Source: Bacillota bacterium (GTDB lineage Bacteria > Bacillota_I > Bacilli_A > Izemoplasmatales > Hujiaoplasmataceae). Taken from it: a stretch of DNA of 64,000 nt. The stretch lies in assembly GCA_018818595.1 (NCBI GenBank), contig JAHIRM010000013.1, positions 1-64,000 of the forward strand, read 5' to 3'. Shown in pieces: positions 20,829 to 53,256 of the stretch (position 1 is the first letter of the stretch; each line of letters opens with the position of its first letter). The translations under genes and the position numbers were made by a program. Below the pieces are notes generated by a model. That model searched no databases. It worked only from the letters and a program-made list of their open reading frames with translations, and was not told the origin of the DNA.

Positions 20829-20837
20829 AATATTCTC

Positions 20838-23090: not shown

Positions 23091-24002
23091 TTAAATCACC
23101 CACCCAACATAAATAGCTAAAATTGCTTGTGTAATAGCCATTAACAATGGCCATTTATAGAAAAATTTAACGACTTGATCAATTTTAAAACGTCCATTCA
23201 CATTAGAAATCAAGTTAACTGTTGTATATACAAGGAAATATTTAATTAAGAATACAAAGATATTAGAAGCTCCTCCTAAGAATAAATGTACAAATAAACT
23301 GACTTCAATGAAAACAGTTATTTCATGCATTATGAATAGCATTCCTAGTTGTTTTCCACCATACTCTACCATTGGACCAGAAGCAATTTCTGCCGGGGCT
23401 ATGTAAGTCTCAAATGGTTTTTTTCCTAGCATACCCATTAGGCTTAAGATTGCTACGATTCCACCAAGTGGCAGTGCAATGATAAACCAATTGTTTTCAG
23501 CTAATTGTTGAAATAAACCAATTTGAGTTAGAGAACTTGTTCCCGTTAATTTTATGATGGTTAATACAATAATCATGAAAGGAACTTCATAAGCTAACAT
23601 GGTCGTTAAAGCTCTCATAACACCAATACTTGCAAATGGATTTCCACTTCCGCTTGCGCTCATAGCCATACCTAACATACCAACAGCTAAAAGGTAAACG
23701 AAGATGAAGAAATTATCATATCCATAGGCACCAAAAGCAGATATAGAATTGGTAAGTGGCATGAACATTGCCGTTCCTATGATTCCACCTAACGCCATAA
23801 TGACACCAAAATCAAATATCCAGCCATGGCTAACACTTCTTTTGCTTAACAATTTAAAGATATCTAAAAATTCTTGATACCATCTTGGACCATATCGTTT
23901 TTGAAGTCGACCGACTATTTTTCGGTTAACACCAGCAACACTCGTTTGTAGAACGAATCCAAAAAAGGCAATGCCAAATCCGACTAATATACGTACAATC
24001 AT
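23091..24002 (-). CDS. mbxM: Mbx subunit M (NuoH-like membrane anchor)
   Basis: 303 residues with about eight membrane helices. It has the NuoH-typical GRLQKRYGPRWYQ and DIFKLLSK stretch after the first helix and the KKPFETYIAPAEIASGPMVEY loop, which carries the conserved acidic residues. This subunit joins the peripheral arm to the ion-pumping module. It overlaps the H' gene by four bases. Confidence 0.9.
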   Translation of the reverse strand: MIVRILVGFGIAFFGFVLQTSVAGVNRKIVGRLQKRYGPRWYQEFLDIFKLLSKRSVSHGWIFDFGVIMALGGIIGTAMFMPLTNSISAFGAYGYDNFFIFVYLLAVGMLGMAMSASGSGNPFASIGVMRALTTMLAYEVPFMIIVLTIIKLTGTSSLTQIGLFQQLAENNWFIIALPLGGIVAILSLMGMLGKKPFETYIAPAEIASGPMVEYGGKQLGMLFIMHEITVFIEVSLFVHLFLGGASNIFVFLIKYFLVYTTVNLISNVNGRFKIDQVVKFFYKWPLLMAITQAILAIYVGWVI

Positions 24003-33513: not shown

Positions 33514-33540
33514 AACTGTCACAAAAGTGACAGTTTTTTT
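33514..33540 (+). terminator. Terminator after the NYN gene
   Basis: AACTGTCAC (33514-33522), AAAA loop, GTGACAGTT (33527-33535), then T-run. On the minus strand there is no T-run, so read-through from orr may end differently. Confidence 0.85.
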
Positions 33541-34597
33541 ATTTTATAATGACTTTTTTTACGTAAGATGAGTTCATTAAATGGACAAGACTTGGATAAT
33601 TAATATCAAATAGAATAATATCTCCAACTTTATAAGATGTTCCTGTTACATCCAAAATTAAGTGATCACTGCTACCTCCAACAATTTGGATTCCTTTATC
33701 TTGTGGAAACAAATTTGAAAGGATAACATCTTGTTTTCCAATGGCTAGTAAAGCACGTTTCATCAATCCCTTATCTTCAATTTGAGGAACTTCACCAAAT
33801 GAATTTAATCCAATTTCACCGATAGGAAAACTAGGTTTAACTTTGCATTCAATTATTTTGGCTTCTAGTTGAAATACATCGTAGTAAAAATTTGGAATTC
33901 TATTTCCATAAGCAGTTTCCCTGCCCATTAGAAAAGCTTCTCCAATTCTTACGTTATTGATTTCTTTAGGAATCTGATTTTGATTAAATAGGTATACAAT
34001 GGAAGAATTTCCACCTGAAATCAAGTCTAAATGAATATGAAAAGTGGATTCAATGTTTTCTTTTATGATAACGAGTTCTTTTAGGTTTTCTTGTTTAGGA
34101 AGAATGCCGCCATAGCAAGTCAAGTTTGTCCCAATTCCCAATAATTTTATATTTTCTAGTGTAAGAATTTTTTCGACAATTGGTAAATAGGAATCCAAAT
34201 AGAAAATTCCTTCTCTTAAATCTCCAAGATCAAACATTAAAATAATTTGATGTATTTTCTTTTGTTTTGCGGCTTCGGTATTTAATTTTTGGATAATTTT
34301 AAGTTCTGAATTTAAAGAAATATCGGCGTATTTTATCACTTTACTGATATTGTCGTTCATTGGAAGTCTTAATAATACTTTTTGAATTGGCAAATGTTGA
34401 AATTTTTGTAAGTTTTGAATTCTAGAGTCAGCAAGATAGGAAAAACCTTGACTGAGTAGGGATGATACAATTTCAAGATTACCAGCAAAAGCTTTTACAA
34501 CTGCCATGCAAGAAATATTGTTTTCTTGACAAAGTTTATTTATTTCACTAGCGTTATGGCTTAGTTTTGATAAATTGATTATAATTCTTGGATACAT
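33539..34597 (-). CDS. orr: Ornithine racemase (PLP, alanine-racemase fold)
   Basis: 352 residues. The alanine-racemase-like N-terminal barrel carries the PLP lysine in MAVVKAFAG (about residue 34). It converts L-ornithine to D-ornithine, substrate of the aminomutase. The last gene of the ornithine operon in the order known from Clostridium sticklandii (ord-ortA-ortB-oraS-oraE-or4-orr). Spacing to the preceding gene is 11 bases. Confidence 0.85.
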   Translation of the reverse strand: MYPRIIINLSKLSHNASEINKLCQENNISCMAVVKAFAGNLEIVSSLLSQGFSYLADSRIQNLQKFQHLPIQKVLLRLPMNDNISKVIKYADISLNSELKIIQKLNTEAAKQKKIHQIILMFDLGDLREGIFYLDSYLPIVEKILTLENIKLLGIGTNLTCYGGILPKQENLKELVIIKENIESTFHIHLDLISGGNSSIVYLFNQNQIPKEINNVRIGEAFLMGRETAYGNRIPNFYYDVFQLEAKIIECKVKPSFPIGEIGLNSFGEVPQIEDKGLMKRALLAIGKQDVILSNLFPQDKGIQIVGGSSDHLILDVTGTSYKVGDIILFDINYPSLVHLMNSSYVKKVIIK

Positions 34598-34608
34598 CTA
34601 ATCACCTC

Positions 34609-35973
34609 TTATTTAAGACTATTTAATAAAAGAATCCGTGCAGCTTCGGGATATTTTTTTGCTAACACTCCGCAAGCGCCCATTATGTAAAGCGTGTCCA
34701 GTAAAATAGTAGTTTCTTTGTTTGGTTTTAATAATAGATCAGATTTTTTATTTAAAGAATCAAAAATAATCGTTTTACCACCAGTTATTTTAGTTAAAGC
34801 TCCGCCAGTTCCAATAATGGTTTTTACGGCACTTAAGTCTTTGCCTTCTGTTAGCGTTGTTTTCCCACTTGCACCATATAAATGGATGTAGTGCCCTGCA
34901 TGTCTTTCGATAGCTCTATTTAAAGCTTCTAATGTCAAACGACGTACTAAGGGAATTTGTTGAAAAGAGGGAATGGGAAGATAGTTTGAAAGAAGTTTGT
35001 TAAGCGAAATAGTATCTAAATTTAATTCTTTTGCTAATTCATTTCTTCCAATCATTTCAATAATATTGTCTTTATTTACGTAGACACCTAAATCTCCTTC
35101 AACCGTTCTTTTGGCAAAAGGTTCAGGAGAAATCAATTTTTTTTGATTTTCTTCAAGCCCTGAAGTCACAGAATGAATATCAGAAGTCGCTCCTCCAATA
35201 TCGATGGTAACTAAATCTCCTATTTCTTTTTGTAAAAGAATGGAGGCTTCCATTACAGCGCCAGGAGTAGGAATAATATTTTGGTTAATCGTATCTCTTA
35301 CTTTTTCCATACCAGGAGCGTTTATAATATGTTTTTCAAAAACGGATTGAATAATTTTTCTTGCTTCCTCAACTTGAAGTACATCTATTTTTGGGTAGAC
35401 ATTTTGAGATATGGTTAAATAATCTAATTGATTTTCTTTTTTGAAAACAGCTTTAATTGCATCGTGATTTTGGATATTTCCTGCGTAAATGACTGGAATA
35501 TTCAGATGAAGACTAGCTATTTTTTTTGCGTTTTCTAAGGCAGTATCGCTTTCACCATAATCTACTCCGCCTGCAATCATAATAATATTTAATTTCAAGT
35601 CTCTAATAAGAGCTAATTGATATACATCTATTAAGCCGGCAGTAATCAATTTCAGATTAGCCCCAGCTCCTAAACAGGCTTCTTTTGCGGCTTTTACAGT
35701 CATATCATATACTAATCCATGAACGCTCATTTTCAAACCGCCAGCAGCACTTGAACACGCAAACGATTCGATTGCTTCTAAATCGTCAACGTTCATAGAG
35801 TGTTTTAAATCATCTATTGCTTGATGTAACCCGATGGTGACGTCACCTTGTTTTACTGTTGTAGGAGCAAAGCCTTGTCCAAGAAATATAGGATTATTAG
35901 AAGAAATATGATCAAATGCACTTACAATTGTCGTCGTTGATCCAATTTCTGCGACAAGGACATCAATTTTCAT
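34609..35973 (-). CDS. GlmL/MutL-family protein of the ornithine aminomutase operon
   Basis: 454 residues, an ASKHA-type ATPase-like fold. It opens with DVLAVEIGSTT-like glycines (VAEIGSTTT), and DIGGATSDIHS (about 270) is the second phosphate loop. It is homologous to GlmL of glutamate mutase operons, thought to protect or reactivate the B12 enzyme. It lies between oraE and orr as in clostridial operons (or-4). Named from context and family; its chaperone role is an inference. Confidence 0.8.
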   Translation of the reverse strand: MKIDVLVAEIGSTTTIVSAFDHISSNNPIFLGQGFAPTTVKQGDVTIGLHQAIDDLKHSMNVDDLEAIESFACSSAAGGLKMSVHGLVYDMTVKAAKEACLGAGANLKLITAGLIDVYQLALIRDLKLNIIMIAGGVDYGESDTALENAKKIASLHLNIPVIYAGNIQNHDAIKAVFKKENQLDYLTISQNVYPKIDVLQVEEARKIIQSVFEKHIINAPGMEKVRDTINQNIIPTPGAVMEASILLQKEIGDLVTIDIGGATSDIHSVTSGLEENQKKLISPEPFAKRTVEGDLGVYVNKDNIIEMIGRNELAKELNLDTISLNKLLSNYLPIPSFQQIPLVRRLTLEALNRAIERHAGHYIHLYGASGKTTLTEGKDLSAVKTIIGTGGALTKITGGKTIIFDSLNKKSDLLLKPNKETTILLDTLYIMGACGVLAKKYPEAARILLLNSLK

Positions 35974-38173
35974 TTTTATGTAATTCCTTGTGTTTTTTTA
36001 CGAGAAAAGAAGCAACATCTTTGCCTTTTGTTCCTCGACCAAAGCCTTCGTCTACTCCTTGAATCCTTGCAAGTTCTGGAGTAACTTGAGTTCCTCCAGC
36101 TAGAAGAATAAGTTTATTTCTTATGCCTTTTTCTATGGCGTATTCATGCGTTTTTTTCATGTTTTTATAGTGAATTTCATCATGAGAAATGATAGTAGAC
36201 ATAAGTATGGCATCTGCATTTAATTCGATTGCAGCATCAACTAATTTTGAAATAGGGACAGAAGTTCCTAAGTACTCACATGTAAATCCATATTTTTCAA
36301 TTCCACCGTGTTTGATGTCAATAATCTCTCTTAATCCAACTGAGTGTTCATCTTCTCCAACGGTTCCAGCAACGATGGTCATTGGATGAGATTCAAGATA
36401 TTCTCTTATTTCAGTATCACTTAAAAGATCTGGAATTTTTGCTAGTTCAAGTGTGGACAAATCGATATCAAAATCAATTTTTCCTTTTATTTGAATTCTT
36501 GTTCCTTCAATGGGATGAAGAACTTCTTTATGGATTACTTCTATGTTTTTTAAATTCATTTTTTTGCCTATTTCAATGGCTGCAGCTTCCGCATAAATAA
36601 CAGATGTAGGTAAAGTTAAATCAACCACAATTACGCCATCGGCTAACCATTGTACTTCAGGTTTTATAAGAGAAGAATTACGGTATTTCTCGTTTTCTTT
36701 CATACGAAGATATACATTATCTTCAGAGTCAAGTTCGTCGATATATTGAATTTTAGAACGATCTTCAAAAGTAGATCCACCAATTAAGATAGAAGGGTTA
36801 TCGGATTCTTTTAATCCATATTGCTTCACATTGTTGTATCCAAAATGAGCTGGAACAGGTGCAAAATAATCTAAATCTCGTTCAAAAACTGAATTGGAAC
36901 TGATACCACCATTAATTTTTCTTGAGATGCCATCTCCGTTTCGTTCAGGATAATTTCCCGAGTCAATAAAAAAGCCTTTTTCAACAGAAGCAAAATATCC
37001 GCCAACTTCAAGGAGTTCTTCAAAGAAAAGGATAGCTCGTTCTTTAATTTCTCTTACTTTTTCTTTCATGAAACCATCTTTTTTAACTTCTACTAATTCC
37101 AGCAAACCATCCATTCCAATTAATGCTTGTTTTGCAGTATCACAAGCTTCAACATTGTACATATGCCAAGGAACATTTCTTCCTTCATCAGGAGTAATAG
37201 TGGATTGAATGTCAGCTGAAGTCAACTTAGAAATCATCATATTTAATACATGAGTTACTGTAGCGTCCCGAGTAGATGATTCCATATATTTTGTGTTCAT
37301 TTGAGCTCGAAATTTATATCGGCTAAAAAAATCTCTAAGGGCAACTGCGTAAGGTAAATTAATTTTCAAATCTGGTTCAGGAGAAGCAGATGGAGGTACG
37401 GTTGATAATGCAATGTAGTTATTATTCATACCTGATTTTTCAGAAAACAAACTATTGATTGCGTGTTGAACAAGAAGCTCAGGCATTATTTTCCATGCTT
37501 CCATAGCGGTTGCATTTGCGTTATGAGCTCCATCAATTTGTAAGATATTTTCATAAGCCATAATTTTTTTAGATTCTGCAGCATCCACAAAAGATCGAAT
37601 CATGTTAATGTTTCGATATAATACATTGTATTGTGGATCTTGATGAGCTCCATTCACGCCTTCTTCAGCGAACATTACTGCGATATCTGGTCCGGCAACT
37701 CCCGATACATAGGAATGAAAATTAATAGGTCTTCCGACTTCGTCTTCAATTAAATCAAGTGCTTTTCGTTGAGCCCTTATTTGTTTTCTGGAAATAGGAA
37801 CTCCACCAACTCCTTGAGGGGTACCCTCAATGAGCCCATCAAAATGGGATTGACCAGCAGTACGTATGACCATAATGTGGTCTGCCCCATGCCATGCGGC
37901 CATTCTCATTCTTCTAATGTCATCTTCAAATCTTCCAGATGCAATTTCAGTTGTGATTACTTGAATGGGTTGTGGATCGATTTGATTAAAATATTTAGCA
38001 GCGGGAAGAGGAACATATTGGGTTAAAGGAGTAGAAACATCACTGTAATGATGGTGATTCATTTCAAGATTGTTTTCTAAAGTTCTCCAAGTCCAGCCTT
38101 TTCTTTTAGGAACATATTGATCTAAATCTTTTAGGATTTCTTCAATATTTAAATGTTCATTAGGGTTTATCAT
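35963..38173 (-). CDS. oraE: D-ornithine 4,5-aminomutase, large subunit (B12, PLP)
   Basis: 736 residues. The C-terminal cobalamin domain has DEHSVG (D608, H610) as the base-off DxHxxG motif, and the lysine K621 in DIKHGG lies 11 residues after the His, matching the spacing of the cobalt His and PLP Lys known in C. sticklandii OraE. It moves the 5-amino group of D-ornithine to C4, giving 2,4-diaminopentanoate. It overlaps oraS and the MutL-like gene. Confidence 0.93.
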   Translation of the reverse strand: MINPNEHLNIEEILKDLDQYVPKRKGWTWRTLENNLEMNHHHYSDVSTPLTQYVPLPAAKYFNQIDPQPIQVITTEIASGRFEDDIRRMRMAAWHGADHIMVIRTAGQSHFDGLIEGTPQGVGGVPISRKQIRAQRKALDLIEDEVGRPINFHSYVSGVAGPDIAVMFAEEGVNGAHQDPQYNVLYRNINMIRSFVDAAESKKIMAYENILQIDGAHNANATAMEAWKIMPELLVQHAINSLFSEKSGMNNNYIALSTVPPSASPEPDLKINLPYAVALRDFFSRYKFRAQMNTKYMESSTRDATVTHVLNMMISKLTSADIQSTITPDEGRNVPWHMYNVEACDTAKQALIGMDGLLELVEVKKDGFMKEKVREIKERAILFFEELLEVGGYFASVEKGFFIDSGNYPERNGDGISRKINGGISSNSVFERDLDYFAPVPAHFGYNNVKQYGLKESDNPSILIGGSTFEDRSKIQYIDELDSEDNVYLRMKENEKYRNSSLIKPEVQWLADGVIVVDLTLPTSVIYAEAAAIEIGKKMNLKNIEVIHKEVLHPIEGTRIQIKGKIDFDIDLSTLELAKIPDLLSDTEIREYLESHPMTIVAGTVGEDEHSVGLREIIDIKHGGIEKYGFTCEYLGTSVPISKLVDAAIELNADAILMSTIISHDEIHYKNMKKTHEYAIEKGIRNKLILLAGGTQVTPELARIQGVDEGFGRGTKGKDVASFLVKKHKELHKNEN

Positions 38174-38544
38174 TCTTTCACCCCAAAACTGTTTATAATA
38201 GATTCAAAACCTTGATCTTTCATTAGAGAAAGACCAGCTTCTCGAATCGAAACTTTGTAAAATGTGGAATAACGATATACAACATGGCCTGCACCTTTGC
38301 CTATTAAATGATGATCCATTACTTTTTCAACGATTACTTTAGCTTCAATGCTTGAAAATCCCATTCTAAGTAAAATAGATCGTTCAATGGCAGGAGAAGT
38401 ATGTGATTTTGCTAAATCAATTAAAGGAGACACCGCTTTGTTAGCTAAACTCCAAAAAAGTTGTTTTAATTCTTCATCATTTAATGTTTGTAAATGAGAT
38501 CTTCTTGTTTCAAAATCATCCATTCTAGGATTTCCCTTATTCAA
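38170..38544 (-). CDS. oraS: D-ornithine 4,5-aminomutase, small subunit
   Basis: 124 residues, helical, the usual OraS size. It assists OraE folding and substrate binding. It sits just before oraE with a four-base overlap (ATGA type). Recognised mostly from position and segments such as SPAIERSILLRMGFSS. Confidence 0.88.
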   Translation of the reverse strand: MNKGNPRMDDFETRRSHLQTLNDEELKQLFWSLANKAVSPLIDLAKSHTSPAIERSILLRMGFSSIEAKVIVEKVMDHHLIGKGAGHVVYRYSTFYKVSIREAGLSLMKDQGFESIINSFGVKE

Positions 38545-39965
38545 ATTGATCCCTCCAAAGTAACTCCGTGTTTTTTGAGTTGTGTTTTTACAAAATCGAT
38601 TGATTCATTTGTTTCTAAAACAAGAAATTCTAAATCATTGTAAGTAAGACTCGAAATGTCCTTTATAGCATTTTTAATATAAGATTCTTTAATTTTCGTT
38701 AAATCAATTTCTTGTGTTTGAATTAAATCAACCGCTTTTGGTAAAACGATTGTTTTTCCTGGAATTTCATCTTTTGGGTTTCCGAAAAGAATTTGAATTC
38801 CATTTTGTCTTGCGAAAGCCAGTTGAGCTTGATGATGCTTTCCTGCACCTGTATATTCAGTTTCTTGTACAATGATAATTTGATCTTCTTTTAATTCTTT
38901 TGCTAGTGAAAAAGCAGCAGCTAAAGAGGTGTTACCAGCAGGACCGCGTTCAATTCCTTCTAGAATTGTTAACATTTCAGTCATAAAGAAAACTTCTCCT
39001 TGAGAAATCGAAACGTAACGATCAATATAACGAAGAGGTCTAGCCGCTGATCGCGGAACGTCACTTCTGTCTGGATTCATCATAAAAGGAATTCCAAAAC
39101 CTGTGTGACCTGTCGTAAAGGATTTTTTATTAAAATCCGTGTCACTTGCCATATGAAGCCCTTTCAGATTCACGCTGGCTCCAACTATTTGAATTGGAGA
39201 AGAAGTTGCTTTTAATATTCCTCTTGCAGTGCCAGTTAAATTTCCTCCTCCAGCGTTAGTAACGACCACCATATCGGGAAGTTTTCCTGTTAAAGAAAGA
39301 CAATCTGATATAAGTTCTAATCCTAAGGTTTCAATTCCAGAAACGCCATAAGGCGTATACAAAGAAGCGTTAAAATAGTTTGTTTCTTCCAATAATTTAA
39401 GAAATACATAAAAAAGTTCAGGGCCTACAGTCAGTTGAATCACTTCAGCACCATATGCTTCACAAGCTCTTGCTTTTTCGATGATTTCAGGTTGACCAAT
39501 ACCTAATGAATCAAAACATTCTTGCACAATGATACATTTTAATCCGTATTTTGCTGCTTGAGAGGCCACTGCGGCACCGTAATTTCCTGAAGTAGCCGCA
39601 ATAACGCCTTTATAACCGTTTTTCTTAGCGTGATAACATGCGATAGAAGCTCTTCTAGCTTTAAAACTTCCAGAATCATTTAAAGCTTCATCTTTTATGA
39701 AAATTCTAGCACCATTTCCAGCAATAGAGACTTTTCTGACTAAAGAAGTAATGTTTTTGCATTCTTTTAAAGGCGTTTTTCCCACGCCATTTGCATATTG
39801 AATTTTTTGAATTTCTTCTATGGAATAACCAGTTTCTTTCATTAATCTTTCATAATCAAAACCAATTGAACCTGTTTCATATTTATCATAATTAATTCCA
39901 ACAGAAGTCTTCATAATAGCATTTTTTCTAGATAGAACTAAAGCATAATCCAAAGAATTATTCAT
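38541..39965 (-). CDS. ortB: 2-amino-4-oxopentanoate thiolase, beta subunit (PLP)
   Basis: 474 residues from the ATG at 39965 (an ATG at 39989 lies deep in ortA). A fold-type II PLP enzyme: SGSFKARRAS carries the PLP Lys, ATSGNYGAAVA the phosphate-side Asn and VVTNAGGGNLTG the PLP phosphate loop. With OrtA and CoA it cleaves 2-amino-4-oxopentanoate to acetyl-CoA and D-alanine. Confidence 0.9.
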   Translation of the reverse strand: MNNSLDYALVLSRKNAIMKTSVGINYDKYETGSIGFDYERLMKETGYSIEEIQKIQYANGVGKTPLKECKNITSLVRKVSIAGNGARIFIKDEALNDSGSFKARRASIACYHAKKNGYKGVIAATSGNYGAAVASQAAKYGLKCIIVQECFDSLGIGQPEIIEKARACEAYGAEVIQLTVGPELFYVFLKLLEETNYFNASLYTPYGVSGIETLGLELISDCLSLTGKLPDMVVVTNAGGGNLTGTARGILKATSSPIQIVGASVNLKGLHMASDTDFNKKSFTTGHTGFGIPFMMNPDRSDVPRSAARPLRYIDRYVSISQGEVFFMTEMLTILEGIERGPAGNTSLAAAFSLAKELKEDQIIIVQETEYTGAGKHHQAQLAFARQNGIQILFGNPKDEIPGKTIVLPKAVDLIQTQEIDLTKIKESYIKNAIKDISSLTYNDLEFLVLETNESIDFVKTQLKKHGVTLEGSI

Positions 39966-40281
39966 GAGCTTCACCACCAAAAAGCGCATTTTTTATAATG
40001 CGATCTATTTGAAGAATTTCGGGAACAAATTCACCGTAATTATGCATATAACTCGGATTTGCTTTAAGAAGAGTTCCTGTTTCTATTCGATTTGTAATCG
40101 TTCTAATTTTAACGACATCAAATAATTCTGCGTCTTGAAGCAGAAAACCTTTCACCCATAATTCAAGAGGAACAGTGCATGTTTCGCTTGGAAGAGTTTT
40201 AAGCCTTTGACTTGAGGGTAGAATTATTTTATGAATTTGGACCCAGGTATTAGAAGGTATCATACATTCACTCCTCATCAA
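39958..40281 (-). CDS. ortA: 2-amino-4-oxopentanoate thiolase, alpha subunit
   Basis: 107 residues, small beta-rich protein. It has WVQIHKIILPSSQR and PLELWVKGFL, matching the OrtA pattern, and overlaps both ord (14 bases) and ortB. It is the non-PLP partner of the thiolase. Confidence 0.88.
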   Translation of the reverse strand: MMRSECMIPSNTWVQIHKIILPSSQRLKTLPSETCTVPLELWVKGFLLQDAELFDVVKIRTITNRIETGTLLKANPSYMHNYGEFVPEILQIDRIIKNALFGGEAHE

Positions 40282-41323
40282 TTAATAGCCGTACATCACC
40301 CATGATAGCTCGTGGAACAGGTAAATCAATCATCGTTTTTAATCCTGGTTTTGAATTCAAAACATGAGGAATCATATTAACACAAATTGCAATTGTACCA
40401 ATTCCTCCATCAACTTCTGGGGTTATAGACATATTGATTTCAGGAGTTCCATGTATAGTGATATAATCACCAGTTTTTACTCCAGCAAGATGTGGCTCAA
40501 TTTGTTGAGGATGATGCATGTGAATGGTTGTATGATTGCTTAATTGAATAATGCTTTGCATATCAACTCCACAAACATCTCCTTTTTTGGCGAATCCATA
40601 TGAAGATTTACGATCAACTTGAGTAATGATAGGATTCATCGTTTGTGAAAATTTATTAACAGATAGCCCTAAAGCGTGGGCAATCATATTACTTGATTCT
40701 TTAAACCCTACATGCCCTGCAATCTCATTGTGCAAGCTTTTATCTTGAAAATCTTTCAATGTAAAACCGACACCTTGTTCTTCCATCACTGTTTTTCCAA
40801 AGGGAGATAGACTATTGACTCTTGAAATGTTCATATCTTTTACTTCTGTCATCACTCCAGTTAGAGTGATGGCAAGAAGATCCATCATCATTCCTGGGTT
40901 TACTCCTGTCCCTAAAACGGTAACTCTATGTTTTTTTGCTAATTCATTCATTAATTTAGAAATGTCTGGTTCACTTGCGTATGGATAAGCCATTTCTTCA
41001 GCGGTAGAAATAATATTACATCCATTTTCAATCAGTAACTTGATTTTTGGATAGGCTTTTTTGGAAAAAGAATCTGTAGCAAGTAACACGATATCTGGAT
41101 TTTGCTCTTTTATAATCGCTTCAATATCGTCTCTTACATAAACATCGTGGGATTGAGGATTGTTAATCTTTAAGATGTCATAAATGCTTTTTCCAAGATA
41201 CAATTCATAACTGTCACAAACACCAACGATGTCAAATCCGGTTTTTATACTAATCATTTTAGCCATTCCAGAACCCATGGCTCCAAAACCCCAAATAACA
41301 ACTTTTACTAGTTCGTTTCTCAT
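40268..41323 (-). CDS. ord: 2,4-diaminopentanoate dehydrogenase
   Basis: 351 residues. Rossmann motif IWGFGAMGSGMAK at the N-terminus, then LGTGVNPGMMMD, typical of the DapB-like diaminopentanoate dehydrogenases. It oxidatively deaminates 2,4-diaminopentanoate to 2-amino-4-oxopentanoate, making NAD(P)H and ammonia, the reducing power likely used by the Mbx complex. Confidence 0.92.
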   Translation of the reverse strand: MRNELVKVVIWGFGAMGSGMAKMISIKTGFDIVGVCDSYELYLGKSIYDILKINNPQSHDVYVRDDIEAIIKEQNPDIVLLATDSFSKKAYPKIKLLIENGCNIISTAEEMAYPYASEPDISKLMNELAKKHRVTVLGTGVNPGMMMDLLAITLTGVMTEVKDMNISRVNSLSPFGKTVMEEQGVGFTLKDFQDKSLHNEIAGHVGFKESSNMIAHALGLSVNKFSQTMNPIITQVDRKSSYGFAKKGDVCGVDMQSIIQLSNHTTIHMHHPQQIEPHLAGVKTGDYITIHGTPEINMSITPEVDGGIGTIAICVNMIPHVLNSKPGLKTMIDLPVPRAIMGDVRLLIDEE

Positions 41324-41334
41324 CGATATTCCTC

Positions 41335-42267
41335 CTATGCTCTTATTGTTGTGCCAGCTTGTCCTTCGACAGCCAATGCAGCTTCTTCTAAAGAAGCGAT
41401 GATGGCAATTCGATTTTCATTTCCTTTCACAAAGGCTAATGCAGCTTCCACTTTTGGTAGCATGCTTCCTTTTAAAAAGTGGCCTTCTAATATATGTTTT
41501 TCTAATTCTAAAACACTTATTTGATCCAAATCGATTTGATTGGATTTATTAAAATTTAATTTCACTTTATTGACAGCAGTTAAAATAATCAACATATCAG
41601 CGTTTAGCATATCAGCTAATTTTGCACTTGCAAAGTCTTTATCAATTACGGCAGGAACGCCAATGTAATGGTTATTTTTCAATATTACAGGTATACCGCC
41701 ACCACCTACAGTGATAACGGTATGATTTGCTTCAACTAATGTCTTTATTATATCAATTTCTAATATATTTACTGGCTTTGGTGAAGGGACAACTCTTCGA
41801 TATCCTCTATTTGCGTCCTCTTTCATAATGTAACCTCTAGTTGTCTCTAAAAAATCTGCTTTTTCTTTAGAATAAAAAGAACCGATTGGTTTTGAGGGAT
41901 GTTGAAAGGCTTCATCATTTGGATCAACTTCAACTTGAGTGATGATGGTTGCAACTTTTTGAGTCATTCCTTGTTCTAAAAACTCGATTTGTAAAGCATT
42001 TTGTAAATGATACCCGATATAGCCTTGGCTCATTGCTCCACATTCTGGAAAAGGCATTAAAGGATTTTTGTTATCAAGCATAGCTCCAGTTTCAAATGCT
42101 AAATTAATCATTCCTACTTGAGGTCCGTTTCCATGAGCGATAATAACTTCATGACCTTTTTTAATTAGATCAACAATGGGTTTAACAGCATGTTTTACTT
42201 TTTCAATTTGCTCTTCTGGACTATTTCCTAAAGCATTTCCTCCCAAAGCAACAACTATTTTTTTCAT
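41335..42267 (-). CDS. arcC: Carbamate kinase
   Basis: 310 residues. [10 protein letters not shown] and the HGNGPQVG substrate loop are clear, with VGGGGIPV and the [10 protein letters not shown] region further on. It makes ATP from carbamoyl phosphate and ADP in the catabolic arginine route. It overlaps arcB by four bases. Confidence 0.95.
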
Positions 42268-43265
42268 ATGTTTTCTCCTAAGCTAGCGTACATGACAGCT
42301 TTTATGGTATGAAGTCTGTTTTCTGCTTCATCAAACACTACTGATTGTTTGGACTCGAATATGGCTTCATTTACTTCAAGGCTTGATATACCAAATTTTT
42401 GGTAAATATCTTTTCCAACTAAAGTATCTAAATTATGAAAAGCAGGCAAACAATGCATAAAAATGGCATTTGGATTTGCATTTTTCATAATGGTTTCGTT
42501 CACTTGATAAGGCATTAATTCTTTAATTCTTTGTGCCCAAACATCTTCAGGTTCTCCCATTGATACCCAAACATCCGTATAGATGACATCGCAATCATTG
42601 CTTCCTTGTATAGGATCTTCCGTTAAAGTGATAGATCCCCCAGAAATCAAAGCAAGTTCCTTGCAGGTATGAACTAATGTTTCATTAGGCCATAAATCTT
42701 TTGGGGCCACAGCTCTAAAATCTAGTCCCATGATAGCAGACCCAATCATTAATGAATTTCCCATATTGTTTCTAGCGTCGCCAAAATAAGCGAATTTTAT
42801 ATTTTCTAAATGACCAAAATGTTCTTGTATGGTAAGAAAATCAGCTAGAATTTGGGTAGGATGATATTTATCGGTAAGGCCATTCCAAACAGGGACTCCA
42901 GAATATGCGGCTAAAATTTCTACTGTTTCTTGTTTATAGCCTCGATACTCAATGCCATCGTACATTCTTCCTAATACTCTTGCGGTATCTTTAATACTTT
43001 CCTTTTTCCCCATTTGAGAGCCAGTAGGTCCTAAATAAGTTACATTCATTCCTAAATCATAAGCGCCAACTTCAAAAGCGCATCTGGTTCTTGTTGAATC
43101 TTTCTCGAAAAGTAAAACGACATTTTTTCCTAAAAGTGGTTTTGATTCTTTCCCAGATTTTTTTTCGTTTTTTAATTTTAAGGAAAGATTAAGTAAATCT
43201 GTGATTTCTTGGTTTGAAAAATCAAGTAATGTTAAAAAACTTCTTCCTTTAAACGGATTGCTCAT
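42264..43265 (-). CDS. arcB: Ornithine carbamoyltransferase (catabolic)
   Basis: 333 residues. It shows the carbamoyl phosphate site STRTR, HPTQ, the SMGEPEDVW loop and HCLPAFH. It is next to carbamate kinase, so it most likely runs from citrulline to ornithine and carbamoyl phosphate. No arginine deiminase is visible in the window; it could be encoded elsewhere. First gene of the nine-gene operon. Confidence 0.93.
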
Positions 43266-45841: not shown

Positions 45842-47743
45842 ATGAACCAAATCTTTAAAAAAGTAATGTCATATGCTATTTTATTGCTTGCAGTATTTAG
45901 CGTAGTGGCGTGTACTGAAGCTACAACAACAACTACAACATCTTCTGGAACTACTACCACGACTACTACCACGGCTCCAGAACCTCAAACTTTAGTTGTC
46001 GGTGTTCCTGAAATGAACGGCGAATTTATGTTTGGTTTTGGGAATAGTTCTTATGACAACTACGTAAGAAGCTTAATTTATGGATACGGAACATATGCAA
46101 GTACACCAACTGGTGAAATTGTATTAAATGATACCGTAGTTACAGATTTAGCTACTGCTACAGACGTAGATGGAAACAAGACTTATACATTCACATTAGC
46201 TGAAGACTTATTATGGTCTGATGGCGAAGCTATCATGGCTGATGACTTTGTATTTGCAATTCTATTTAATTCATCAATCGATTGGATTAATGCAGGAGCT
46301 ACTTCAGCATCTGGAGAAGGCTTATTAGGATACGATGCTTATCGCGATCCAGTTGATGGCGATGAAGAACCTCTAGATTCATCTATTGGCGTACCTTTTG
46401 CTGGTGTTAAATTATTAGGAGATTATGAATTCTCATTAACTATCGATGCAGCAGAATTACCATACTTCTATGAAACATTATATGTAAGTTATGGACCTAT
46501 GCCTATGCATGTTTTAGCAGCTGATGGAGCAACAATCACTTCAACTGCAGCTGGTGCAACTCTTTCTGTAGGCGCACTTGATACTATGGATGACATTATT
46601 GCAATTGGTGGATATCGTTACCATCCAACAGTAACAGCTGGACCTTACACTTTCGTTAATTTCGTAAACCAAGTAGTTACTCTTGAAAAAGATCCAAACT
46701 TTAAAGGAAATTATGCTGGCGATAACGTTACAATCGACACAGTAATTATTAAACGCGTTAACCAAACATTAGACGTTGAATTAGTAATTAGTGGAGAAAT
46801 TGACCTTGTTACTGGAGTTATTGAAGGAAACAAAATTCAAGCTGCTCAAGCTTCTACTACAGCTTCAGCAAACTATTACAACCGTAATGGTTTTGGATAC
46901 CTTGGAATGGTTTGTGACTGGGGCCCAACTGCAGACGTTAAAGTACGTCAAGCAATCGCTCATTTAACTGACCGTCAATATGTTGTTGACCAAGTTCTTG
47001 AAGGATACGGTTCAATCGTGTATAGCGAATATGGTCTAGCTCAATGGATGTATGTTGATAGCGAAACTTGGGTTGAAGATAATATCGATCCATACGTATT
47101 CAGCGTTGCACAAGCTAATGCATTATTAGACGATACTGTTTGGGCATTTGAATCAGACGGAACTACAGCTTTCAATCCTGCACTTGCAACTGCTGGAAGC
47201 GGATATTTCAGATATAACGCAGCTGGAGAACCTCTTGAAATCAAACATTTCGGTACAGAAAACAACCAAGTTACAACTTCTTTACAAGCTAAATTCGAAT
47301 TAAATCTTCAATTAGCAGGTATTGATTATTCAATTACTATCGGTACTTTCGATACATTACTTGATCATTACTATTATTCATATGAATTAGCTGACGAAGA
47401 TAGAGTTTATTCATTATTTAACTTAGCTACTAACTTTGGAACAACTTATGATCCATATTACAGTTGGAGTCAAGATTGGTTAGGTACTTGGTATAACGCA
47501 AATCAATTAGATAATGAAGCACTTTCTGATTTAACTTCTGAACTTCGTGCTGTAGCACCTGGAGACAACGCAGCATTCTTAGCAATCTGGAGAGAGTTCC
47601 AATTATTATGGAATGAATTAATTCCAAACGTACCATTATATTCAAATCAATATTATGATATTTTTGATGCTAACCTTCAAGGCGTAAATACAACTCCATT
47701 CTATGATTGGACAGCTGCAATATTCGATATGTATTTCGAATAA
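45842..47743 (+). CDS. oppA: Oligopeptide-binding lipoprotein OppA
   Basis: 633 residues of the family 5 solute-binding proteins. Lipobox V-V-A-C, then a Thr-rich linker, then the binding domain with LVVGVPEMNGEF, the DNYVRSLIYGYG start, FTLAEDLLWSDGEAIMADDFVFA and a C-terminal ELIPNVPLYSNQYYD. It binds peptides outside and delivers them to OppBC. RBS aggagg. The codons look tuned for high expression (many AAC, TTC, GAC, unlike most neighbours). A stem-loop separates it from oppB. Confidence 0.93.
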   Translation: MNQIFKKVMSYAILLLAVFSVVACTEATTTTTTSSGTTTTTTTTAPEPQTLVVGVPEMNGEFMFGFGNSSYDNYVRSLIYGYGTYASTPTGEIVLNDTVVTDLATATDVDGNKTYTFTLAEDLLWSDGEAIMADDFVFAILFNSSIDWINAGATSASGEGLLGYDAYRDPVDGDEEPLDSSIGVPFAGVKLLGDYEFSLTIDAAELPYFYETLYVSYGPMPMHVLAADGATITSTAAGATLSVGALDTMDDIIAIGGYRYHPTVTAGPYTFVNFVNQVVTLEKDPNFKGNYAGDNVTIDTVIIKRVNQTLDVELVISGEIDLVTGVIEGNKIQAAQASTTASANYYNRNGFGYLGMVCDWGPTADVKVRQAIAHLTDRQYVVDQVLEGYGSIVYSEYGLAQWMYVDSETWVEDNIDPYVFSVAQANALLDDTVWAFESDGTTAFNPALATAGSGYFRYNAAGEPLEIKHFGTENNQVTTSLQAKFELNLQLAGIDYSITIGTFDTLLDHYYYSYELADEDRVYSLFNLATNFGTTYDPYYSWSQDWLGTWYNANQLDNEALSDLTSELRAVAPGDNAAFLAIWREFQLLWNELIPNVPLYSNQYYDIFDANLQGVNTTPFYDWTAAIFDMYFE

Positions 47744-47805
47744 GAAGAAAGCTCAATTAAAAGAAAAATTTAATTATTTACATAGTTTGTAAAATCTAGA
47801 AAAGA

Positions 47806-47830
47806 GGAGAGTAATTAATACCTACTCTCC
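47806..47830 (+). promoter_or_regulatory. Intercistronic stem-loop between oppA and oppB
   Basis: GGAGAGTA (47806-47813) pairs with TACTCTCC (47823-47830), loop of nine, with only a weak T-tract after it. It may protect the oppA message or partly terminate, giving more binding protein than permease. Confidence 0.5.
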
Positions 47831-47855
47831 TTGCTTTTCGGAATAGGAGAAAAAA

Positions 47856-48830
47856 ATGATAAAGTTTTTAGGCAAACGCATCATATCATTGATTCCGGTT
47901 ATCATTATTATCTCAATCCTGTTGTTTGCTATCATGAAAATGATGCCAGGAGATCCCGTTCGGTACATGTTGCCTCCCGGTTCTACTAGAGACCCAGAAG
48001 TATATGAACAACTTTATGCTGAAGCAGTGATAAAATTAGGATTAGATAAACCCCTTGTTACCCAATATTTCTTTTGGGTAAAAAATATGGCTATCGGAGA
48101 TTTCGGTTACTCTTCTGACTTTCAACAAGAAGTTAAGTTAGTCATTAAAGAACCTCTTGTAAATAGTATTATTATCAATGTTTTTTCAATTGGAATCGCG
48201 TTTATTATTTCAATTCCTGTGGGTATTAAATCTGCAGTAAAAAAAGATTCATTAACTGATCGAGGATGGCAAGTATTCTCGCTTTTTGGTATGTCAATGC
48301 CAACCTTTTTTATTGGTTTGACTTTAATCTTTATTTTCGCAATAACTCTCGGTTGGTTTCCTTCTGGAGGAATGCCGTATGAGAATCCTGGAACGTTTGA
48401 GTATTACTTATCTTACTCAAAATATATTTTCTTGCCTGTAGTTACCCTTACAATTGGCGCTCTAGCAGGAACAATTCGTTATGTAAGAGGATCAATGTTA
48501 GATGCTTTAAGCAAAGATTATATTAGAACCGCAAGATCTAAAGGATTACGAGAAAAAGTTGTTATTTATTCTCATGCTTTTAGAAATGCATTAATTCCTG
48601 TTGTTACTATTATGTCTTTTTCAATTATTGGTTTATTTGGTGGTTCCGCCATTACAGAAGCAATATTTGTATGGAATGGTATTGGAACGGTATTAATTAG
48701 ATCGTTGACTGTAAAAGATTATAATGTAGTCTTAGTATTAAATATGTTTTACGCGGTATTGGCACTAGTAGCAAATATTGTTATGGATATTAGTTATGCG
48801 CTAGTAGACCCTCGCGTAAAATTAGAGTAG
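47856..48830 (+). CDS. oppB: Peptide ABC transporter permease OppB
   Basis: 324 residues, six helices, family DppB/OppB. It has KMMPGDPVRYMLPPG after the first helix, GMSMPTFFIGL and the EAA-type cytosolic loop DALSKDYIRTARSKGLREKVVIYSHAFRNALIPVV. Together with OppC it forms the membrane channel. RBS aggag. Confidence 0.93.
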   Translation: MIKFLGKRIISLIPVIIIISILLFAIMKMMPGDPVRYMLPPGSTRDPEVYEQLYAEAVIKLGLDKPLVTQYFFWVKNMAIGDFGYSSDFQQEVKLVIKEPLVNSIIINVFSIGIAFIISIPVGIKSAVKKDSLTDRGWQVFSLFGMSMPTFFIGLTLIFIFAITLGWFPSGGMPYENPGTFEYYLSYSKYIFLPVVTLTIGALAGTIRYVRGSMLDALSKDYIRTARSKGLREKVVIYSHAFRNALIPVVTIMSFSIIGLFGGSAITEAIFVWNGIGTVLIRSLTVKDYNVVLVLNMFYAVLALVANIVMDISYALVDPRVKLE

Positions 48831-48836
48831 GGATGA

Positions 48837-50711
48837 ATGCATATGAAAACAATTAATAAAATTCTACAATCATTTGTAGACCTTATAAAAAGATTATTTA
48901 TTCCTGGCAATCACAATCGAAGCATTTTAGAAGAAGAAGCTTTAATGAGCCCAGGAAAAGTTATTGCAAAGAACTTTTTTCGGAATAAACTGGCAATTGT
49001 AGGAATTATAGGGTTTGTTTCAATCTTTATTTTTTCTTTTGGATTATCTCTATTTGTTCCTTTAGATTTATATTATTCAAGTGCTTTTCATGCGAACTTA
49101 CCCCCTAATTATGCTTATTTGAACGCTCCAAGTGCTCTTGAAGATGAAGGAGTTGCTTTAATTGATTCAGGAGTTGCATTTTCAATTGGATTGTCTGATG
49201 AAGGCAATGTTTTTGTCTGGGGAAGCAACATTTATGGAGTAAAAGATATTCCAGAAGAAGTAGCAAATGCAAATATTGTTTTTGTTTCAGCTGGAACGAA
49301 GCATTTAATGGCAATTGATGATCAAAACAATGCTTATCTTTGGGGCTATAACCATTTTTCTCAATCTTCCATTGATGAGAGATACGTCGATGATTTTTTA
49401 ACAGATCCAATTGTGTATTTAGAAGGTGGATTTGATAGAACAATTGCAATTACCGAATCTGGTGCAGTATATGTTTGGGGAGTTGGAGCAACTGATATTT
49501 TAGGAAATCCAATGAGAAGATCTCCTTATATTTATCTAGATGGAGATAGTCAACCAATCAAAGCAGTAAAAGCCATTGCAAATAGTACTAATTTAATGGT
49601 TCTGTTAGAAGATGGAACGATAAGAATTGAAGGAACTTTGGATGATGTAAGAGTATTTGCTCCTGCAGAATTAAAAGATGGTTCAATTGAAATTGTTCAA
49701 ATTGCTCTTACATTACGAAATGCTTTTGCTGTGGATTCTAATGGTATTTTATATGCATGGGGTAGTGCAAGCGACAGCATGCTTGATACTTATATACCAA
49801 CAGAAGCTTTAACAAATATCAAAGACCTTCAATCAGGATATCAACACGTTGTAGTACTTACAAACGATGGGAATGTATATTCTTGGGGAGATAATTCTTT
49901 AGGTCAAATAGATATTCCAGAAAAGTTATCAAATGTTGATGAAATCTTTGTTAATTCATTCCAAAATTATGCTATTTCAGATGGTGAAATTACCGCTTGG
50001 GGTAATCATGGATTCATTCTTGGAACTGATGAACAAGGTAGAAACTTTGTAACACAATTAATTCATGGTGGAAAAGTTACTTTAACCGTAGGTGCCGTAG
50101 CAGTTATTATTTCTGTTGTAATTGGAGTAACGGTAGGACTAACCGCTGGATACTTTGGTGGAAAAGTCGACAATTTATTAATGCGTTTTGCTGAAATTGT
50201 ATCTTCTTTCCCATTCTTACCATTTGCAATTACATTATCTGCACTTCTAATAGAAACTGCAACAACAGAAATTCAGAGAATGATGATGATTATGGTTATT
50301 TTAGGTGTCTTATCTTGGCCAGGATTATCTCGTTTGATTCGTGGACAAATTTTATCTGAGCGTGAAAGAGATTATGTTATGGCTGCAAAAGCGCTTGGAA
50401 TCAAACAAAAACATATTATTTGGAGACATATTTTCCCAGCAGTTACAAGTATTGTAATTGTTAACTTAACACTTGGGTATGCAGGCTCTCTTTTAACAGA
50501 AGCAGGACTTTCTTTCTTAGGCTTTGGCGTTCAAAAACCAAATCCATCTTGGGGGAATATTTTAACAGCTGCTCAAAATACAGATGTTATTCGTACATAT
50601 TGGTGGCGTTGGGTGCTACCTGGTCTTTGCATTATTATTGCCGCATTAAGTATAAATTTAATTGGTGATGCACTACGTGATGCAATGGATCCAAGAAATA
50701 ATGAGCGATAG
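48837..50711 (+). CDS. oppC: OppC permease with RCC1-like beta-propeller inserted in its first external loop
   Basis: 624 residues against about 300 for an ordinary OppC. The N-terminus and first helix (51-76) are normal. After SAFHANLPPNYAY comes an insert of about 290 residues (105-392) built of RCC1-type repeats: WGSN 128, WGYN 169, WGVG 214, WGSA 308, WGDN 350 and WGNH 388, plus one degenerate copy near 265, with SxGxxHxxA-like strands between. The permease then resumes at HGGKVTLTVGA (410), with the EAA loop near 515-540 and LGFGVQKPNPSWG. By topology the propeller faces outside, beside OppA. An alternative ATG at 48843 has a better RBS distance. Confidence 0.92.
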   Translation: MHMKTINKILQSFVDLIKRLFIPGNHNRSILEEEALMSPGKVIAKNFFRNKLAIVGIIGFVSIFIFSFGLSLFVPLDLYYSSAFHANLPPNYAYLNAPSALEDEGVALIDSGVAFSIGLSDEGNVFVWGSNIYGVKDIPEEVANANIVFVSAGTKHLMAIDDQNNAYLWGYNHFSQSSIDERYVDDFLTDPIVYLEGGFDRTIAITESGAVYVWGVGATDILGNPMRRSPYIYLDGDSQPIKAVKAIANSTNLMVLLEDGTIRIEGTLDDVRVFAPAELKDGSIEIVQIALTLRNAFAVDSNGILYAWGSASDSMLDTYIPTEALTNIKDLQSGYQHVVVLTNDGNVYSWGDNSLGQIDIPEKLSNVDEIFVNSFQNYAISDGEITAWGNHGFILGTDEQGRNFVTQLIHGGKVTLTVGAVAVIISVVIGVTVGLTAGYFGGKVDNLLMRFAEIVSSFPFLPFAITLSALLIETATTEIQRMMMIMVILGVLSWPGLSRLIRGQILSERERDYVMAAKALGIKQKHIIWRHIFPAVTSIVIVNLTLGYAGSLLTEAGLSFLGFGVQKPNPSWGNILTAAQNTDVIRTYWWRWVLPGLCIIIAALSINLIGDALRDAMDPRNNER

Positions 50712-50723
50712 GAGGTATGGATA

Positions 50724-51731
50724 ATGAGTTTATTAGAAATTAAAAATTTACATACTTATTTCAATACCCGAAAAGGATTAATTAAAGCCGCTAATGGTGT
50801 ATCTTTGAAAGTTGAAGAAGGTAAAACGTTAGGAATTGTTGGGGAATCTGGAAGCGGAAAAAGTGTAACAGCTATGAGTATTCTACGTTTATTTGAACCC
50901 AATCAAAAAATTCATGAGGGTGAAGTTTGGTTTGAAGGAGAATTGATTTCCGAAATTTCCGAAACGGAGATTCGCAAAATCCGTGGGAATCGAATTTCTG
51001 TTATTTTCCAAGAACCAATGACTAGTTTGAACCCTGTTTTAACTGTTACAAGACAAATTAGTGAAGTATTAATGCTTCATAGAAACATGTCAAAAGAAGA
51101 AGCTCATCTAAAAACGATTGATCTTTTAGCGTCGGTTGGGATTTCAAATCCAGATAAGATTGCTAAAGTATATTCTTTCCAATTATCCGGAGGAATGAGT
51201 CAACGCGTTATGATAGCAATGGCACTTGCTTGTAGGCCTAAATTACTGATTGCAGACGAACCTACAACAGCACTAGATGTAACAATTCAAGCACAAATCC
51301 TTAAACTAATGAATGATCTAAAAAGAGAATTAGGAACTTCTATTATCTTCGTGACTCATGATTTAGGTGTTATCAACGAAATGGCTGATGATGTTGCAGT
51401 AATGTATTGTGGACAAGTTGTCGAGAATGCTTCAGCAAAAATTATTTTTGGACCTAATCCAAAATATTCACATCCATATACTGAAGGATTAATGCTTTCC
51501 ATTCCTAGATTAAGCGACAAAAAAGGAAGGAAATTAGAAGTAATTCCTGGAACCGTTCCACATCCACTTGATTTACCTGAGGGATGTAAGTTCGCTCCAA
51601 GATGCAAATATGCTACTTCAAAATGTCAAAAAGAAGAACCTGAGTACATTGAAGTTGGACCTGAACACTTTGTACGTTGTTTCTATCCGGAAAGTGAGGT
51701 GCGTATAAATGGAAAAAAAGAAGCTAAGTAA
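50724..51731 (+). CDS. oppD: Peptide ABC transporter ATPase OppD
   Basis: 335 residues. Walker A GESGSGKS, Q-loop IIFQEPMTSLNP (ordinary spacing), LSGGMSQR signature, Walker B LLIADEPTTALD, H-loop FVTHD, and the C-terminal oligopeptide region with CKFAPRCKYA cysteines. It is of normal length, unlike OppF. It overlaps oppF by 23 bases. Confidence 0.95.
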   Translation: MSLLEIKNLHTYFNTRKGLIKAANGVSLKVEEGKTLGIVGESGSGKSVTAMSILRLFEPNQKIHEGEVWFEGELISEISETEIRKIRGNRISVIFQEPMTSLNPVLTVTRQISEVLMLHRNMSKEEAHLKTIDLLASVGISNPDKIAKVYSFQLSGGMSQRVMIAMALACRPKLLIADEPTTALDVTIQAQILKLMNDLKRELGTSIIFVTHDLGVINEMADDVAVMYCGQVVENASAKIIFGPNPKYSHPYTEGLMLSIPRLSDKKGRKLEVIPGTVPHPLDLPEGCKFAPRCKYATSKCQKEEPEYIEVGPEHFVRCFYPESEVRINGKKEAK

Positions 51732-53256
51732 AGAACCGTTAATTGAAGTTCGAAAACTTAAAAAATACTTTCCTTTAAAACGCAATTCATTCCTTGAACG
51801 AGGACAAATTTATGTTCGCGCTAACGAAGATGTATCCTTAACAATCTATAAGGGAGAAACTTTAGGATTAGTTGGAGAATCAGGATGTGGAAAAACAACC
51901 CTTGGGCGTGTCATTTTACAGTTATACCCACCAACTAGTGGATCTGTCGTTTACTATGGACCTTTATTTCAAGAAACCAAATTACAATACATAGTAGATG
52001 AAATTAAAAAATTTCCTACTTATCAAAGTAAAGCTGAAAATTTATACAATAAAAGCCTTTTAATAGATCAAGATGTAGTAACTCTAACCGCTACATTAAA
52101 AGAGTATGACATTACGCAACCTCAAGAAAAAGACGTTGTTGACAAAAAAAGAGTGAGTTTAGATAAAAAAATCAAGAAAAAAATTATGGCATCAAAGTAT
52201 CTTAAAATGCGTGCTTCAAGACTTTTAAGAGAAGCTTCACGCGTTGGAGGATGTCTTATCCTTGAAGAAAACATTGATGAAATAACAGAATTATTGCTTC
52301 AAGCAGCTGATTTAGTTAAGAATAATGGTGATTTTTTAGTAGGGCTTGATGGAAGAGAACTTCCTCATTTTTCGCCTAAGTTAAAAGCTATCTTTAATAA
52401 AGTGATTGGTTTTAAAGGAAAGAATGTTAAAGCCATTACAGAACGTACTTTAGACCCAGAATACCAAGCGAAACTTGAAAATAATCGTGAGACTGGGGTT
52501 ATGTTACAACTTCTAGATAAAGAAGAAGTGCGTCAATTAAGAAGAAAATTGCAAATTATTTTCCAAGACCCTTATTCATCTCTTGATTCAAGAATGACAA
52601 TTGGTCAAATAATTGGAGAAGCTGTTACAGAACACGGGTTATACAAAAGAGGATCACAAGAATTAGAAGATTATGTTTTGGATACGATGTCAAAATGTGG
52701 TTTAGACCATTACATGCTTCACCGTTATCCTCATCAATTTTCTGGTGGGCAAAGACAAAGAGTTGGAATTGCAAGAGCCTTAGCTTTAAAACCTGATTTT
52801 GTAGTTTGTGATGAAGCTGTAAGTGCACTTGATGTTTCGATTCAATCTCAAATAATTAATTTACTTATGGAATTAAAAAAAGACGAAGACCTTACTTATT
52901 TGTTTATATCTCATGATTTGAGTGTTATTAAGCACATAAGTGATCGTATTGGAGTTATGTATTTAGGAAATCTTGTTGAACTTGGAGATTCAGAAGAAAT
53001 TTATGAAAATCCTCTTCATCCATATACTAAAGCATTACTTTCCGCCATTCCTACAACTGATGAAGTAAAAGGAACTAGAATTATTATTGAAGGAGATATT
53101 CCATCAAACATATTTCCACCTTCTGGATGTAAATTTAGAACACGTTGCCCTTTAGCTAGAGAACGTTGTGCAAATGAACAACCACTTTACAGAGAAATTT
53201 CTAAAGGCCATCATGTGGCTTGCCATTATTATGAAGAAACGAAGGATATGAAATAA
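51709..53256 (+). CDS. oppF: Peptide ABC transporter ATPase OppF with large internal insertion
   Basis: 515 residues instead of about 310-330. Walker A GESGCGKT (56-63) and then GSVVYYG at 78-84 are followed by an extra segment of about 185 residues (about 88-272), Lys/Glu-rich and helical, before the Q-loop sequence LQIIFQDPYSSLDSR (281). The rest (FSGGQRQR, VVCDEAVSALD, FISHD, CKFRTRCPLA) is normal. Such insertions are known in OppF of mollicutes. Position suggests it protrudes from the nucleotide-binding domain in the cytosol. Confidence 0.93.
   Translation: MEKKKLSKEPLIEVRKLKKYFPLKRNSFLERGQIYVRANEDVSLTIYKGETLGLVGESGCGKTTLGRVILQLYPPTSGSVVYYGPLFQETKLQYIVDEIKKFPTYQSKAENLYNKSLLIDQDVVTLTATLKEYDITQPQEKDVVDKKRVSLDKKIKKKIMASKYLKMRASRLLREASRVGGCLILEENIDEITELLLQAADLVKNNGDFLVGLDGRELPHFSPKLKAIFNKVIGFKGKNVKAITERTLDPEYQAKLENNRETGVMLQLLDKEEVRQLRRKLQIIFQDPYSSLDSRMTIGQIIGEAVTEHGLYKRGSQELEDYVLDTMSKCGLDHYMLHRYPHQFSGGQRQRVGIARALALKPDFVVCDEAVSALDVSIQSQIINLLMELKKDEDLTYLFISHDLSVIKHISDRIGVMYLGNLVELGDSEEIYENPLHPYTKALLSAIPTTDEVKGTRIIIEGDIPSNIFPPSGCKFRTRCPLARERCANEQPLYREISKGHHVACHYYEETKDMK

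Follow-up and report, generated by a model that had tools for sequence, protein, structure and literature searches.

The oppABCDF operon and its genomic context

The stretch of DNA analysed here, 64,000 nucleotides in length and referred to below as the window, contains an intact oppABCDF operon at positions 45842-53256, with all genes on the + strand. The first gene (45842-47743) encodes OppA, a peptide-binding lipoprotein of 633 aa that matches Pfam SBP_bac_5 (3.2e-38) and carries a VVAC lipobox read from the sequence. It is followed by the gene for the permease OppB (47856-48830; 324 aa; Pfam BPD_transp_1 and BPD_transp_1_N). OppB is of ordinary length and retains its own TM1-TM2 region of the ordinary kind; its top NCBIfam model was Opp4B, at 292.7 bits and thus below the cutoff of 450. 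The operon closes with two ATPases, OppD (50724-51731; 335 aa) and OppF (51709-53256; 515 aa), both of which contain ABC_tran and oligo_HPY domains. This gene content identifies the system as an OppABCDF peptide importer of the type I ABC class, with peptide import as its predicted activity.

The third of the five genes, oppC (48837-50711), encodes a protein of 624 aa from an ATG start in an uninterrupted reading frame, and it is here that the operon departs from the E. coli systems. Both ends of a permease were identified by Pfam: OppC_N at residues 38-90 (27.6 bits; curated cut-off 23.9) and BPD_transp_1 at residues 430-620 (2.3e-32; 112.7 bits; curated cut-off 26.4). The permease core, which comprises TM2-TM6 (residues 393-624; 50013-50708), was matched by phmmer to solved OppC (8z21_B, 4e-46) and DppC (8z1v_B, 3e-44). 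Among all NCBIfam models Opp4C scored highest, at 316.3 bits against a curated cut-off of 350, so the protein is nearest to Opp4C and is not assigned to that equivalog.

Upstream of the operon, a probable ornithine fermentation cluster (33539-43265) was observed, including a D-ornithine 4,5-aminomutase-like protein (35963-38173), a PLP enzyme (38541-39989), a 2,4-diaminopentanoate dehydrogenase (40268-41323) and an amino acid kinase (41335-42267). In the window genome (1.87 Mb, 95% complete) a single OppC was found, the second match being its own OppB. The related organism Peloplasma requires yeast extract and is missing several amino-acid pathways (PMC11122141). Taken together, the sole OppC found, the ornithine breakdown upstream and the needs of Peloplasma provide circumstantial indications that peptide uptake is probably important. 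Elsewhere in the window, Mrp/complex-I-like antiporter subunits (23999-25825 and 25818-27206) and a Fer4/pyridine nucleotide oxidoreductase (18834-20828) lie within a cluster at 18834-27206 that possibly encodes an energy-conserving redox complex, and a LuxE-type acyl-protein synthetase is present at 6142-7269.

An RCC1-type propeller between TM1 and TM2 of OppC

Six hydropathy peaks were observed in OppC, with an N-in, positive-inside pattern. TM1 (residues 52-70; 48990-49046; hydropathy peak 2.56) is separated from TM2 by a segment of 346 residues containing 16 K/R and 46 D/E, and the cytosolic residues 1-51 and 498-534 are basic. Downstream of the insert, the sequence can be aligned to the solved OppC and DppC of E. 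coli, starting at about residues 74-80 of those proteins, and the DppBCDF structures have the TM1-TM2 region on the periplasmic side (PMC12136057). The topology and charge pattern, together with the homology to E. coli DppC, place this loop outside the cell. The propeller occupies approximately residues 104-389 (49146-50003) of the loop, preceded by an N-side linker (residues 84-103; 49086-49145) and followed by a C-side linker (residues 390-402; 50004-50042) that leads into the LGTDxxGR motif. The OppC elements that border the insert (L-x-P on one side, LGTDxxGR on the other) persist. The stretch before LGTD measures about 393 residues in the window OppC; in the nearest non-RCC1 relative it measures about 104, and a sister OppC in genome G045 possesses the same flanking elements with about 290 residues fewer. 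The retention of these elements indicates that the propeller was inserted into the loop and not substituted for it.

The identity of the insert was established by several comparisons. RCC1_2 repeats were detected by Pfam in five significant stretches (1.3e-28; 98.5 bits against a cut-off of 22), and the RCC1 repeat model also exceeded its curated cut-off (24.9 versus 21.7 bits), while WD40_RLD, an RCC1-like domain, reached an E-value of 1.4e-34 at 120.4 bits, below its curated cut-off of 150. A profile built from the RCC1-OppCs of another bacterial family alone gave the window insert 242 bits; with the same profile, the top score among 500 shuffled copies was 5.7 bits. Seven units were delimited, at residues 104-144, 145-189, 190-240, 241-283, 284-325, 326-366 and 367-389, and seven strand groups were present in the insert of an AlphaFold2 model of OppC. 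Residues 90-412 of this model matched the UVR8, BLIP-II, HERC2 and RCC1 structures with Z scores of about 20-22. Because confidence was moderate in the propeller (pLDDT mostly 60-89) but poor across the membrane segments, the model was used for the fold of the insert alone. The list of fold matches was filled by propeller structures, and the absence of OppC and DppC from it has no bearing on the permease fold. A second AlphaFold run with the insert on its own was weaker (mean pLDDT 64) and was left out of the fold searches.

In a 37-row alignment, the glycine was kept in all seven units and the tryptophan of the WG motif in six, unit 4 having no W. Mean conservation peaked in the C-side linker (3.00); blade 7 followed with 2.37, then the N-side linker with 2.30 and blade 1 with 2.20, and blade 3 was lowest at 1.67. 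N87, P90 and much of the G389-D398 run were nearly invariant. Blades 1 and 7 are where the ends of the propeller meet, a geometry that suits insertion into a loop, and the conservation of short linkers and end blades suggests a fixed mount and not a loose tether. To our knowledge bacteria have no Ran, and the Ran exchange function of RCC1 proper is therefore not expected here.

An earlier note on this DNA, made from the sequence, had described a near-complete RCC1-type propeller that replaces the first external loop of OppC. The type of fold is borne out by the Pfam repeats, the 242-bit profile match and the Z scores of about 22 to RCC1 folds, and the extracellular site by the six TM peaks, the positive-inside rule and the DppC homology. 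Its further proposal, a docking or gating role below OppA, is plausible and is taken up later. Two details require correction: all seven units of the propeller are present, only the fourth being without its WG-motif tryptophan, and the propeller is inserted into the loop, whose flanking elements persist.

Distribution and authenticity of the fusion

The same architecture, at the same site, was identified in 48 genomes from five families of the class, some of them wall-less, and several of these genomes consist of a single contig. The search with the insert profile, run over families of the class, returned full-length matches in 39 of the 216 genomes of family f21 (ORFs of 551-641 aa), in five genomes of f18, one of f7, two of f12, and in the window genome, which belongs to f1; the translated matches were OppC fusions. 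Confinement of the fusion to one genus or family was thereby ruled out. With the window sequence alone as query, the fusion was found within its order only in the window genome, and the profile reached wider. A contig scan with window-derived patterns, which covered all species of the genome collection and reaches close relatives only, identified four complete relatives of 623-627 aa at 67-68% identity, one of them from the cultured Peloplasma aerotolerans M4Ah, together with two truncated ones, in opp clusters. In every operon opened, oppA and oppB adjoin the RCC1-OppC gene. In G011, a genome of the window's family, the permease part is 85% identical and the same thioredoxin gene lies downstream. 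The contigs L018 (G011:C80) and G014:C196 start inside the OppC gene, so that the insert region falls off the contig.

These results bear on an artefactual origin, by which an assembly chimera or a frame error would have produced the fusion. Nothing was found in its favour, and the 48 genomes, including single-contig assemblies and a cultured type strain, refute it; we regard the chance of such an error as negligible. The reading frame, which the earlier note had proposed to confirm, is genuine: the ORF is open throughout and the architecture is kept in relatives. Likewise, of the outcomes that the note had listed as damaging to its claim, the search of relatives showed the insert to be present and not chimeric, and the topology places it outside and not inside the cell.

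Some variants of the architecture were also observed. In the genomes G331 and G584, OppCs of 538 and 548 aa (L173 3749-5362 and L174 3944-5587, respectively) contain shortened, degenerate propellers. In genome G144, an OppC of 1144 aa (L186 5857-9288) has a propeller broken by long segments, one of which is probably a coiled coil. Genome G633 encodes two RCC1-OppCs (contigs C53 and C280; L122), one of which is 84% like the window OppC in its permease part and differs from the OppC of its own family; contamination of the assembly is a more likely source than transfer. Outside oppC, the window genome contains three tandem, closely similar ORFs of 952-955 aa (G000:C26, L210 3144-12204), each of which has a lipobox-like N-terminus and combines RCC1 repeats with other segments.

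Origin and selection of the insert

A maximum-likelihood tree was computed from an alignment of 91 rows and 232 columns that was restricted to the permease part. All 41 RCC1-OppC rows fell on one side of a branch with support of 100/93, and each of the 200 bootstrap trees required a single change in the RCC1 state; G045, G072 and G103 supplied the closest insert-free OppCs. The single RCC1-OppC clade points to one old insertion that was then kept. A single gain fits the permease tree, and a later loss in G045, G072 and G103 is possible under the rooting of the tree.

For close pairs, dN/dS was 0.04-0.13 in the insert versus 0.025-0.10 in the permease; for the distant pair of the window and L001 it was 0.31, with synonymous sites near saturation. 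The low values in the insert indicate strong purifying selection and a functional domain, yet one that evolves faster than the permease. Such a difference is what a surface facing the environment could display, and it is among the arguments for a propeller that binds extracellular peptides, proteins or surface polymers instead of OppA and acts as a module for capture, adhesion or sensing. BLIP-II, a close solved relative by sequence, binds another protein tightly, and the three tandem lipobox proteins in the same genome show external RCC1 domains in use. Against this, conservation peaks in the linkers and end blades and not on an obvious ligand face, and the domain is under purifying selection and has been tied to one importer over the whole age of the clade. 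Nothing was found in support of binding to extracellular polymers, which the earlier note had suggested, and we consider a ligand other than OppA unlikely.

Other inserts at the same loop

OppCs of 440-750 aa are numerous across the class. The other OppC paralogs that were read (L047, L048, L049, L053-L055 and L085-L101) contain unrelated inserts of about 190-450 aa in the same loop, with no score against the RCC1 profile, and in the two that were scanned with Pfam no family was found in the insert. On these grounds the large Acholeplasmataceae OppCs, considered as possible RCC1 propellers, were ruled out as such. In some of these systems OppA measures about 1000-1100 aa and OppD has long charged extensions. 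The stretch from L-x-P to LGTD is thus a favoured insertion site, of which RCC1 represents one case in a wider pattern. This lessens the surprise at finding an insert, not at finding an RCC1 fold.

The recurrence of unrelated inserts at one site raises the possibility that size itself is selected, and that the propeller is passive bulk, a shield or spacer guarding the entrance, for example in wall-poor or wall-less cells, its fold being of minor importance. The shortened or interrupted propellers of G331, G584 and G144 would agree with such a role. Seven units, conserved linkers and dN/dS values of 0.04-0.13 across families, however, exceed what a spacer would need, and we give this explanation a rather small chance.

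A companion insert in OppF

A second insert was identified inside the cell. In the window OppF, 227 residues separate Walker A from the Q-loop, whereas the corresponding spacing in OppD is an ordinary 54; the extra segment, whose extent is approximate and was placed by residue spacing, corresponds to 51964-52518. A long OppF insert was present in all 16 RCC1 operons with an OppF examined, the window included (spacing 164-427), although these operons are related, so that the counts are not independent and serve as description, and two of them (L177 and L189) come from near-identical species. None of the three nearest non-RCC1 relatives, in which the OppC insert is also absent, has it (spacing 48). 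The OppF inserts have short motifs in common with one another at each end, with significant similarity among some of them. Among 19 further systems with a short OppC, four showed a longer OppF spacing (L201, L202, L204 and L207), and inserts before the Q-loop also occur in systems whose OppC bears the other type of insert.

The E. coli homologue DppC has DppF as its partner (PMC12136057), and by this homology the outside and inside inserts would sit on partner subunits. It is conceivable that the propeller and the OppF insert form one regulatory pair in which ATP hydrolysis is gated by the loading of OppA. The joint presence of both inserts in the 16 RCC1 operons and their joint absence from the three nearest relatives speak for such a pair, as do the DppC-DppF pairing and a title cited in PMC3328499, according to which MalF-P2 communicates substrate availability to MalK. 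Since pre-Q-loop inserts also exist without RCC1, the link may instead be one of lineage history, and the 16 operons share descent; overall, we hold the regulatory pair to be quite improbable. The more specific proposal, that the two inserts were gained together as a transmembrane sensing pair in which docking or loading of OppA would be read outside and ATP hydrolysis licensed inside, is equally speculative. If true, it would represent a type of regulated peptide importer not yet described.

Proposed role of the propeller

The role that we consider most likely for the propeller, at a little short of an even chance, is that of an accessory docking platform for OppA, comparable in role to MalF-P2. 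The seven-bladed propeller would be rigidly mounted on the outer face of OppC, adjoining OppA, where it could keep OppA in register above the OppB/OppC entrance and help seal the cavity as OppA opens. The docked state might perhaps be relayed to the OppF side, which bears its own insert. From an architecture that is itself well supported, we infer the contact with OppA, the sealing of the cavity and the signalling by analogy with better-known importers. E. coli DppABCDF has its binding protein seated as a cap over DppB and DppC on the outer side; the DppB scoop, likewise situated between TM1 and TM2, contacts this protein and enters its cleft (PMC12136057). In the maltose importer, the MalF-P2 region touches MalE directly (PMC3150292). 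A docking role is further favoured by the conserved linkers and end blades, by the oppA and oppB genes next to each RCC1-OppC gene in the operons opened, by the low dN/dS and single origin of the insert, by the OppF insert of the RCC1 operons, by the cited title on MalF-P2 and MalK, and by the probable importance of peptide import.

Several observations temper a docking platform. The TM1-TM2 region of OppB is ordinary, and the faster evolution of the insert relative to the permease also counts against it. In partial correlations of evolutionary distances, the insert was associated with OppA (0.29, p 0.009) and with OppD (0.31, p 0.007), so that OppA is not singled out. The size of OppA showed no clear pattern with respect to the propeller (RCC1 systems have OppAs of 581-819 aa, and those of two sisters measure 883 and 578 aa), and an enlarged OppA as the partner of the propeller was dropped as a candidate for this reason. 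Finally, close relatives have an ordinary short OppC loop, which shows that the mechanism of transport does not require a propeller.

Whatever its role, the propeller demonstrates that an importer subunit usually deemed compact can bear a whole RCC1-type propeller on its outside. A single acquisition, retained in five families, appears to lie behind it, and the first external loop of OppC is a site that hosts varied domains. The fusion therefore offers a natural system for studying how a permease recruits a lipoprotein binding protein and whether domains outside the membrane speak to the ATPase.

Comparison with known systems

In the literature searched, which covered few subscription journals, no report tying RCC1 to OppC, to permeases or to Erysipelothrix was found. 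An OppC-borne RCC1 propeller thus appears not to have been described previously, although an earlier mention is possible.

The closest known systems are E. coli DppABCDF and OppABCDF (DppC 8z1v, OppC 8z21), which are alike in operon, subunit set and six-TM OppC core, and in a TM1-TM2 loop that lies outside, close to the docking place of the binding protein. DppC and OppC of E. coli, however, have no propeller, and the small scoop of DppB is the accessory element described in that region. In the type I importer MalFGK2, a single permease subunit likewise bears a large extracytoplasmic domain, MalF-P2, but it differs in fold, loop and subunit; no common ancestry is implied, and the corresponding contact with OppA is here a prediction. 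BLIP-II is a bacterial extracellular RCC1 propeller and the best sequence match of the insert among solved structures, although it is a free, secreted beta-lactamase binder outside any transporter. The OppC inserts of Acholeplasmataceae and related families (e.g. L047 and L085) occupy the same loop of Opp operons and are similar in size, whereas they contain no RCC1 repeats and, as far as tested, are not homologous to the propeller.
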